From the IMG/VR virus record IMGVR_UViG_3300025151_000064, positions 1 to 46,774 of that record: a DNA stretch of 46,774 bases, one strand, 5' to 3'. Both the position numbers and the translations under genes were made by a program. This stretch comes from a virus. This document shows, one piece after another, positions 6,355-26,373 of the stretch (the first letter of the stretch is position 1; each line of letters begins with the position of its first letter). The notes beneath the pieces were generated by a model. The model was not told the DNA's origin. It saw nothing but the letters and a program-made list of their open reading frames with translations, and searched no databases.

Positions 6355-6853
6355 AAGTTCCCTCACACCCTTCACATAGTTGAAGTTCCCATTCTTCCAA
6401 CACGCATCCACACTGGAGGCATTTCTTTTGGTCGTCAGGTTTCTTTTCTAAATCAGCTAGGCACTTCTTGCGAAACTCCTGATGATTTTCAAAGACCTCT
6501 GGAGCTAAGAATTCTAAGATTCTTTTATTGGTTTGATACAGCGACCTGAGCAGTCGTTTACGTAAGTTGTACTTGCTCCAGTAGTACTGGATCTCTGCCA
6601 AAGGTATATGATCTAGGTCACCTTCCAGATGAGCCTGATCAAGCTCTGCACAGACATCATCAATTGCATCAAATAGATTTTGTAGTTTTTCTTCCACGAT
6701 TCGGTTCCTTAAAAAAAGTAATGAAAAGAGCAGTTTCTCATCGTACTCAGGATGTCGGAGGCTCGGAAGCATTGTTTGTCTAAGGAGGACTGCTTCCAAG
6801 CAAGTAGTGGTTACAAAGCCACTCACTACCTTGGCTCTTCCTGCGGCAGACAT
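6347..6853 (-). CDS. Helical protein with C-terminal zinc ribbon
   Basis: 168 residues. Residues about 40-140 are predicted helical and charged (heptad-like LFDAIDDVCAELDQAHLEG). The C-terminal end carries CLQCGC...LCEGCEG (about 144-164), two Cys pairs spaced as a zinc ribbon. The start at 6853 has no good ribosome site and translation could begin at the ATG at 6772, which would remove the first 27 residues. The gene lies between the 6882 gene and the lipoprotein gene in the leftward operon. Function unknown; DNA or RNA binding is plausible. Confidence 0.65.
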   Translation of the reverse strand: MSAAGRAKVVSGFVTTTCLEAVLLRQTMLPSLRHPEYDEKLLFSLLFLRNRIVEEKLQNLFDAIDDVCAELDQAHLEGDLDHIPLAEIQYYWSKYNLRKRLLRSLYQTNKRILEFLAPEVFENHQEFRKKCLADLEKKPDDQKKCLQCGCVLEEWELQLCEGCEGTYE

Positions 6854-6881
6854 GACTCACGCCGCTGAGGACGGAAGCATC

Positions 6882-7103
6882 CTATCCTAGTTCTTTGAGG
6901 ACTTTGTCCCACTTCCCCTTCTTCATGCTAATGCGTGCTGCATCAGCCTCTTTCTTGGTTGCGTAGGGGCCATAGTACTCAGTCCCTGTATCGAAGTCTA
7001 CCTTAACTTCCCATGACCCAACCTCGATAGGAGGGTCTAGGAAGTGAAGTTCTTTTGCCAGAGACTTAGTAGCTCTTACTGTAGTGAATGTGATCTTACT
7101 CAT
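6882..7103 (-). CDS. Hypothetical small protein
   Basis: 73 residues from the ATG at 7103, chosen over an ATG six codons upstream because GGGAGGAG lies 4-5 bases before it. The core contains PIEVGSWEVKVDFDTGTEYYGPYATKKEADAARISMKKG: a short beta hairpin followed by a K/A helix, similar in layout to small SPOR- or KEAD-type motifs (YGPYATKKEADA) seen in many phage proteins. The start overlaps the end of the helicase gene by 8 bases, implying translational coupling. Function unknown. Confidence 0.65.
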   Translation of the reverse strand: MSKITFTTVRATKSLAKELHFLDPPIEVGSWEVKVDFDTGTEYYGPYATKKEADAARISMKKGKWDKVLKELG

Positions 7104-8737: not shown

Positions 8738-8766
8738 TTGCCCTTGATTTATCTGGGTAGTACAAC
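8738..8766 (+). promoter_or_regulatory. Candidate promoter of the rightward recombination operon
   Basis: TTGCCC (8738-8743), 17-base spacer, TACAAC (8761-8766), about 38 bases before the ATG at 8804. Each hexamer matches the sigma70 consensus at 4 of 6 bases. A seven-T run (8733-8739) overlaps the -35. Together with the leftward promoter it makes 8620-8803 a divergent control region. Confidence 0.4.
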
Positions 8767-8803
8767 TAAACTACGTTCAGTCATTTATTTGAAAGGAAAA
8801 ACG

Positions 8804-25017: not shown

Positions 25018-25548
25018 ATGACCATTATTTATCCATCAATAAAAACACAAAGACCAATCGACCTGACAAACCTTGTCGAGGTTTACCGTAATCTTAACGT
25101 AACGGATAAGACTAGAATCCCTCAAGAATTGCGGACAGAGTCCGGAGTGTATGGCTGCCCGATCTATAGTATCTGCCAAAATGGTAGGATCGTAGGTTAT
25201 AGCAATAACCTGATTTTGGAAGATGTTCGAATCCGTATTCAGGAAGGGGGACAACGTCGAGCCAAAGAAGAAGACCGCAAAAACGTACACGCCTATTTCG
25301 TCGGGAAGCTTGTTCCCCATGTTAGCGGAGTTTGCAAGGCATCCGGCGGTTTCCCTGTCAACCCGTATCGACCGAAACAGGGTGACAAGTGTTTCACTTA
25401 TCGAGTCAATGCATTCGTTGCCGAGGTTGGGGAACGCCAAGACATTGACTCCCCGTTTTGGTATGCCGGTGCTGTGAAGCTTTCCCACGAGGGTCAATGT
25501 GCTACGGTTTACCTTCCCCGTGAAACTGTAGCCCCAGATCTTACCTAA
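25018..25548 (+). CDS. Hypothetical protein with basic core
   Basis: 176 residues with the leader AAGAGAACCCTAGACATG. Mixed alpha/beta: ELRTESGVYGCPIYSICQNG, a basic RIQEGGQRRAKEEDRK stretch (about 74-89), VNPYRPKQGDKCFTYRVNAF and a C-terminal beta segment (QCATVYLPRETV). No family or catalytic signature recognised. First gene of module 3; the structured element at 25562 follows 13 bases after its stop. Confidence 0.65.
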   Translation: MTIIYPSIKTQRPIDLTNLVEVYRNLNVTDKTRIPQELRTESGVYGCPIYSICQNGRIVGYSNNLILEDVRIRIQEGGQRRAKEEDRKNVHAYFVGKLVPHVSGVCKASGGFPVNPYRPKQGDKCFTYRVNAFVAEVGERQDIDSPFWYAGAVKLSHEGQCATVYLPRETVAPDLT

Positions 25549-25561
25549 TAACTAGGGTGTC

Positions 25562-25711
25562 CTAGGCATGACTCAAAACTGCCTATTCTCAAATAATTGG
25601 GACTAGCTCGCAACCCAGTGAACTTAGTCCATTGCTCAGAGGTTGCCGCATATGCAGGCTTTGGATTGTCCCAGTTATTTTTTCTAGGCATGACTCAAAA
25701 CTGCCTATTCT
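25562..25711 (+). ncRNA. Putative structured RNA flanked by exact 28-bp direct repeats
   Basis: The same 28 bases occur at 25562-25589 and 25684-25711. Each copy contains the hairpin TAGGCA(11)TGCCTA; the second is followed by TTCTTTTTCTC. Between them AATAATTGGGAC (25592-25603) pairs with GTCCCAGTTATT (25668-25679, 12 bp with one G-U), followed by six T. Inside lie GCAACC/GGTTGC (25610-25615 with 25641-25646) and GCATATGC (25648-25655). No convincing gene fits. It may be a noncoding RNA with its own terminator, an attenuator for the 25744 gene or an inserted element. Confidence 0.6.
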
Positions 25712-25743
25712 TTTTCTCACTCCAATTTTTAGGAACTAATAAC

Positions 25744-26373
25744 ATGACTGACACAATTCTCAACATTCATACCGATTTTTTCAACCAGCAAGCTGACACC
25801 GTTTACAACACCATTGAGCAAGAATTGCAATTAGCGATGGATCGGTTTTTGCGTGAGCATAAACTACAACAGGAATTCAATAACGGAAATGTCTGGTTTG
25901 AGAATCAGGTCGAGATCCTAACCTGTGACAAAGACGGACGTATCGAAGGGTCTGAAGCTTACGTCGAAATGCCCGAGTATATCGGAACCCGTAAGGATAG
26001 CGACAAAGACCGATTTGACGATCCAGACGTAGAAGACATCCACTCGTCGACTTGGCACACTAAGACCGAAAGAATTTTCGATTGGATCTCTTGGAGTTAT
26101 TCCAACTATCCAAATGCTACCGATGTCACGGTTTCCATCCGTGGGTTATACGATGACGGAAGTGAACACGGATGCACTATTGAATGGACGGGGTTTGTGG
26201 TCGAGTTCAAACGAGAGACTTTCAAAATCGTTCGGTTTCACTTCCCCAATATTGACATCAATGAGGCTGAATTTATTAAAGGCGGTTTGACTAGGGAAGA
26301 AGCCATCGCTCATTGCAAGCGAGAAGACTCGCACGAGATGTGGACGTGGTTTGACGGATGGACAGCAGAGTGA
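25744..26373 (+). CDS. Hypothetical protein with GGLTREEAIAHC motif
   Basis: 209 residues from the ATG at 25744 (TTTTTAGGAACTAATAAC precedes it); an upstream in-frame ATG lies in the structured element. N-terminal helices (QQADTVYNTIEQELQLAMDR), acidic linker (RKDSDKDRFDDPDVED) and a beta-rich centre (VTVSIRGLYDDGSEHGC). The end carries GGLTREEAIAHCKREDSHE, a short motif (G-x-x-T-R-E-E-A-x-x-H-C-x-x-x-x-x-H) known at the ends of many phage and plasmid proteins, possibly a small metal-binding unit. Function unknown. Confidence 0.7.
   Translation: MTDTILNIHTDFFNQQADTVYNTIEQELQLAMDRFLREHKLQQEFNNGNVWFENQVEILTCDKDGRIEGSEAYVEMPEYIGTRKDSDKDRFDDPDVEDIHSSTWHTKTERIFDWISWSYSNYPNATDVTVSIRGLYDDGSEHGCTIEWTGFVVEFKRETFKIVRFHFPNIDINEAEFIKGGLTREEAIAHCKREDSHEMWTWFDGWTAE

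Follow-up and report, generated by a model that had tools for sequence, protein, structure and literature searches.

The window analysed here is the viral contig IMGVR_UViG_3300025151_000064 at its full length of 46,774 nt. Between two of its genes lie a pair of direct repeats, the core that they enclose and a small predicted pseudoknot overlapping the first repeat; a second pseudoknot of the same family lies elsewhere on the opposite strand.

25018 to 25548, + strand: upstream gene, 176 aa, Pfam Phage_L5_gp82 family, with the stop codons TAATAA at 25546-25551
25559 to 25584, + strand: intact H-type pseudoknot made of repeat copy 1 and the preceding GTC, predicted from family covariation
5' part of the pseudoknot: S1 GTC 25559-25561, CT, S2 AGGCA 25564-25568, T, S1' GAC 25570-25572
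3' side of the pseudoknot: L3 TCAAAAC 25573-25579, S2' TGCCT 25580-25584
25562 to 25589, + strand: direct repeat copy 1, beginning at the CT loop of the pseudoknot and leaving out S1
25590 to 25683, + strand: core, 94 bp, seen only in this phage lineage
25684 to 25711, + strand: direct repeat copy 2, with TTT at the S1 position (25681-25683), which cannot pair with GAC
25708 to 25715, + strand: TTCTTTTT tract after copy 2, found also after the native hairpin of the empty site described below
25744 to 26373, + strand: downstream gene, 209 aa, without family match
6728 to 6753, - strand: second family pseudoknot of the same phage, ATC-CT-GAGTA-C-GAT-GAGAAAC-TGCTC

A repeat search of the window returned the 28-bp direct repeats as exact copies at a spacing of 122, each with the TAGGCA/TGCCTA hairpin and the second followed by TTCTTTTT, just as the initial annotation of this DNA had described. 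No further copy was present in the window even when three mismatches were allowed, and none appeared in shuffles. Neither a tRNA nor a tmRNA was found in the window. What the initial annotation had overlooked is a pairing between the two triplets GTC and GAC. The GTC that precedes copy 1 can pair with the GAC in the hairpin loop, and the repeat thus becomes part of an H-type pseudoknot of 26 nt whose start lies 3 nt 5' of copy 1. Copy 2 follows TTT and lacks S1, so that the intact pseudoknot is confined to copy 1. This pseudoknot starts 10 nt past the first and 7 nt past the second of the tandem stop codons. Because copy 1 has both S1 and the position close to a stop, it is predicted to be functional and should still be working, with copy 2 as a by-product that forms no pseudoknot.

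The ends of the core form a terminal inverted repeat (25591-25603 with 25668-25680), followed by a T-rich stretch. The closing stem, previously given as 12 bp, comprises 13 bp including one G-U; the 94-nt length stood, and inner hairpins were again predicted. The fold of the core reaches -28.8 kcal/mol (z -2.6, with 2 of 200 shuffles equally good) and that of the region -50.6 kcal/mol (z -2.8), which beats the shuffles without being extreme. No convincing open reading frame was found in the core, in agreement with the earlier reading: a single frame, starting at a TTG, runs without a stop into the downstream gene, and its best family match has an E value of 0.13.

Relatives were retrieved by a search with both flanking proteins, which led to two other contigs. 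The insert is present in IMGVR_UViG_3300002483_000222, which shows 14 differences from the window along 14.5 kb (99.9% identity), and the insert is therefore probably real rather than an artefact of a single assembly. The second contig, IMGVR_UViG_3300030433_002207 (hereafter the relative), carries the same genes (92% protein identity for the upstream gene and 65% for the other) and between them a single repeat, CTAGGCATGACTTAAAACTGCCTATTCTTTTT, and no core, which answers the question, raised by the initial annotation, of whether relatives lack the interval between the repeats. When the flanks of the window are joined at the repeat they match this site, so that the window holds 122 additional bases, the core plus one repeat. 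Judged by this alignment, the relative is a natural empty site for the core, and a family element would have been duplicated around a 94-bp insert in the window.

The suggestion of a small inserted element with duplicated ends fits this empty site. It is rather probable that the core came into the 3' UTR as a small mobile element or a product of recombination, 28 bp being duplicated in the process, or, alternatively, that it was deleted from the relative when one repeat recombined with the other; with two lineages only, gain and loss cannot be told apart. This view is favoured by the terminal inverted repeats, by the insert shared between the two nearly identical contigs and by the empty site of the relative. 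Filled and empty sites with a duplicated target, as expected of a transposable element, were found; against such an element stand the length of 28 bp, which is long for a target duplication, and the lack of a second copy outside this lineage. No homologue of the core was detected in phage records, in the relative or in the fetched loci (about 4 Mb), and when viral contigs were scanned for its 17-mers the sole match sat in an unrelated coding sequence. The symmetric multi-branched RNA (hairpin, big stem, hairpin) proposed initially finds no support as one unit: the single repeat of the relative stands alone, the core has no detected homologue and the conserved part is the 26-nt pseudoknot. The idea of a noncoding RNA survives for the repeat unit but not for the whole interval as one RNA.

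The relative also keeps the pseudoknot at 6728-6753, with sequence changes. About 130 nt of structured noncoding sequence (window 6754-6882, - strand; -48.7 kcal/mol, z -2.9) lie between this pseudoknot and a stop codon; they are 95% identical in the relative, where one stem has changed from C-G to T-A in a compensatory manner, and have no Rfam match. At window 8753-8774 (+ strand), just ahead of a gene start, CTGGGTAGTACAACTAAACTAC is a weak family match with a longer loop and poor pairing, and the relative carries it unchanged.

The consensus of the family reads S1(3 bp)-CU-S2(5 bp)-N-S1'(3)-NNNAAAC-S2'(5). Viral contigs scanned for the loop and inner stem pattern GCATGACTNAAAACTGC gave 109 matching stretches, and in 71 of 79 distinct matches the S1 position (upstream by seven to five bases) was occupied by GTC without this being required by the pattern. 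When S2 was left free in the search, at least 120 contigs were found, with complementary stems of many sequences. S1 was probed by searches that barred the usual pairs (GUC:GAC): all three positions were complementary in 88 of 91 and 95 of 101 distinct matches, where about 5% would be expected for random bases. The alternative pairs comprised GAC:GUC, GCC:GGC, AUC:GAU, UUC:GAA, AAC:GUU, CAC:GUG and others. Among 110 sequences picked without a pairing filter, 94.4% of the pairing cells were complementary compared to 74.6% in shuffles, and two-sided changes occurred at all 8 base pairs, which is the mark of covariation. Sliding the structure by one to three columns lowered the pairing to 25-42%. 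L3 read NNNAAAC in the relaxed searches; since the covariation set was picked by its loop letters, the conservation of CU and AAAAC is partly by construction. By these comparisons, the repeat unit at 25559-25584 is shown to be one member of a large family of small predicted H-type RNA pseudoknots associated with viruses. This widespread pseudoknot, which the RNA catalogue searched does not contain, is the real discovery.

A descriptor of the family recovered 534 distinct copies in 4.16 Mb of fetched loci, mostly virus contigs, where about 11 were expected (3 matches in 1.15 Mb of shuffled sequence); as most of these loci were picked for holding the motif, the count is not a frequency for viruses at large. 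Single contigs hold up to seven copies (91 matches compared to 2 for the reversed pattern), and one locus (L402, positions 196-306) has three family pseudoknots in tandem within about 110 bases. Copies occur in isolates from hosts as diverse as cyanobacteria (Synechococcus phages S-EIVl, with three copies, and S-RIM4, and Nostoc phage NMeng1), actinobacteria (Mycobacterium phage Labelle and Arthrobacter phage Molivia), proteobacteria (Paracoccus phage ParMal1 and Rhizobium phage RHph_Y65) and streptococci (Streptococcus phage Javan271). They are also found in gut phages and a microvirus, and a Moraxella phage has a copy with the two sides of S1 exchanged, fully or nearly, to GAC:GUC (GAC with GTC). 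A single pattern run against 84,980 bacterial and archaeal species genomes (257 Gb) gave nine matches, eight of them in metagenome-assembled genomes, a count in which proviral origin is not distinguished.

No match to the 4227 models of Rfam 15 was obtained at curated thresholds in the window or in 15 motif loci, apart from a neighbouring tRNA, and permissive scans returned chance-level matches only. A full-text search did not find a description of the motif in the part of the literature that it covered, and an earlier description is possible. Two bacterial RNAs listed in Rfam are similar in some respects. The L17 downstream element (RF01708) is a structured RNA lying in what may be the 3' UTR of a bacterial gene (PMC2864571); it differs in being tied to a single ribosomal gene and in its structure, and the phage pseudoknot has no Rfam match. 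The STAXI motif (RF01728) is a repeated pseudoknot near DNA-handling genes (PMC2864571), in this case enterobacterial, in tandem and with UUCG loops, and the phage loci were unmatched in the Rfam scans.

The position of the pseudoknot relative to stop codons is narrowly defined. S1 starts 5 nt after the stop in 12 copies, 6 nt in 95, 7 nt in 46 and 8 nt in 18, and never at 0-4 nt. Overall, 61% of the copies lie 4-20 nt past a stop compared to 4% of random positions, and about 38% have no detected stop within 20 nt. That copies far from a stop are regularly preceded by a hairpin was considered and set aside as weak (16 of 134, or 12%, compared to 4.8% of random positions). Giving the 116 upstream gene families one count apiece leaves the peak at 6 nt in place, with a median of 6 in 37 families, and six annotated isolate genomes have a spacing of 6 or 7 nt. 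The upstream genes are diverse, including those for DUF932, HSP20, a carboxymuconolactone decarboxylase family protein, DUF669, capsid protein and ribonucleotide reductase. On the other side, a tRNA follows in 65 of the 534 copies compared to 4 in the control, mostly with a gap of 3-4 nt after S2', although this tight gap stems mostly from two tRNA types (Asp and Asn) and may reflect few independent cases. The pseudoknot is placed tightly with respect to the upstream element and loosely with respect to the next start codon. Such a position, tied to the upstream gene, makes a riboswitch for the next gene unlikely.

Two kinds of noncoding stretch recur just 5' of the pseudoknots. At six loci (L407, L417, L453, L350, L357 and L437) a stretch beginning with TCGCCAGGCTGATTAGGGCGATCA, with small variations, resembles a phage small RNA that would have the pseudoknot at its end. 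Four others (L035, L061, L102 and L103) have long hairpins whose loop contains TCCTTTCT, and these are possibly candidate small RNAs able to pair with ribosome binding sites.

The spacing to the stop and the loose tie to downstream features suggest an element of the 3' end of the upstream transcript, and our tentative reading, which we would put somewhat below an even chance, is that the pseudoknot protects the 3' ends of phage transcripts. From the geometry of the ribosome, a 6-nt spacer brings S1 near the mRNA channel entrance when the stop codon is in the A site. The fold would then sit just beyond the footprint of the terminating ribosome, the closest place at which it would escape unwinding by each terminating ribosome. 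Once the transcript is cut downstream, it could block decay in the 3'-to-5' direction; where a tRNA follows, the cut would be made by RNase P and the mRNA would then end in the pseudoknot, and the protected upstream gene would remain translatable. The position near stops is as such a protector would need it, and an effect on half-life is a prediction. REP elements of enterobacteria are known to protect upstream mRNA against 3'-to-5' decay and resemble the phage pseudoknot in being structured, multi-copy and intercistronic and in lying soon past stop codons, but they are long chromosomal hairpins rather than pseudoknots, of other sequence and without association with viruses. Against 3'-end protection speak the copies that lack a nearby stop, the stem of 5 bp, a short one for stopping an exonuclease if the pseudoknot does not contribute much stability, and the fixed spacing itself, which could equally reflect an action on the ribosome.

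As the next candidate, it is possible, though doubtful, that the ribosome is the target. The pseudoknot would then abut the mRNA entry site and alter termination, recycling or post-termination scanning, for instance by stopping run-on into the next gene. The sharp minimum of 5 nt and the mode of 6 nt across unrelated genes would be well explained, and coremin motifs in eukaryotes block scanning ribosomes (PMC10520033). Some copies, however, are far from stop codons, and plain avoidance of ribosomal unwinding gives the same minimum spacing.

Coremin motifs also raise the idea, quite unlikely in our judgement, that the pseudoknot blocks an exoribonuclease of the opposite direction (5'-to-3', RNase J) as a bacterial counterpart of the plant-virus xrRNA. 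The coremin xrRNA (xrRNA-C) of plant and fungal RNA viruses consists of a GUC-YGAD-GAC hairpin, a GUUAAACUAC spacer and a second hairpin downstream (PMC10520033). Both elements have a GUC...GAC stem followed by an NNNAAAC spacer and are mostly found in 3' UTRs or intergenic regions, and the copy of the Nostoc phage (GUCC-N8-GACGUUAAACU) shares GACGUUAAACU with coremin (GUCC-N3-GACGUUAAACU). Coremin has two hairpins and a small YGAD loop and faces Xrn1 in eukaryotic RNA viruses, whereas the phage element builds a covarying 5-bp pseudoknot stem from its loop and leaves the letters of S1 free; with a loop of 8 nt that pairs with the 3' side and a variable S1, it falls outside the coremin definition. 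A block to RNase J would moreover shield downstream RNA, yet the position is fixed to the upstream gene, and the S1-swapped copy belongs to a phage of Moraxella, a gammaproteobacterium. To our knowledge, RNase J is generally missing from gammaproteobacteria.

A transcription terminator made of a hairpin and a T-tract, as hinted by the TTCTTTTT of the window and by the T-tract that follows both copy 2 and the relative's only copy, is very unlikely. At least six T in the next 8 bases follow only 45 of the 534 copies, so that the family does not have the GC-rich hairpin directly joined to a U-tract that makes an intrinsic terminator; no terminator-like site was called at the repeats of the window, many copies lie in the middle of operons ahead of a ribosome binding site or tRNA, and the strictly kept GUC:GAC pseudoknot would be unneeded for termination. 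Stimulation of stop codon readthrough or frameshifting hardly deserves consideration: known cassettes in RNA viruses and phages likewise combine a stop codon, a short spacer and an H-type pseudoknot 5-8 nt past the decoding site, but the phage element has no conserved open frame past the stop (frame 0 is open through the pseudoknot in only 48 of 164 cases), the downstream genes are about evenly spread over all three frames and the stems vary freely in a manner that is not coding-like.

Taken as a whole, and with a confidence that stays just short of even, the element may represent an undescribed virus-associated RNA class, a 26-nt pseudoknot placed 6 nt past the stops of unrelated genes in phages of many host phyla. 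Its target would be either the ribosome at termination or the decay machinery of the host, and the mechanism would be one hardly used by bacteria themselves. The pseudoknot would be a well-supported addition to RNA catalogues and an aid to phage annotation. Its near-absence from bacterial and archaeal genomes, together with the fixed distance from the stop across phage hosts, points to a general need of phage transcripts and, if active in many hosts, it would provide a short and portable mRNA stabiliser.
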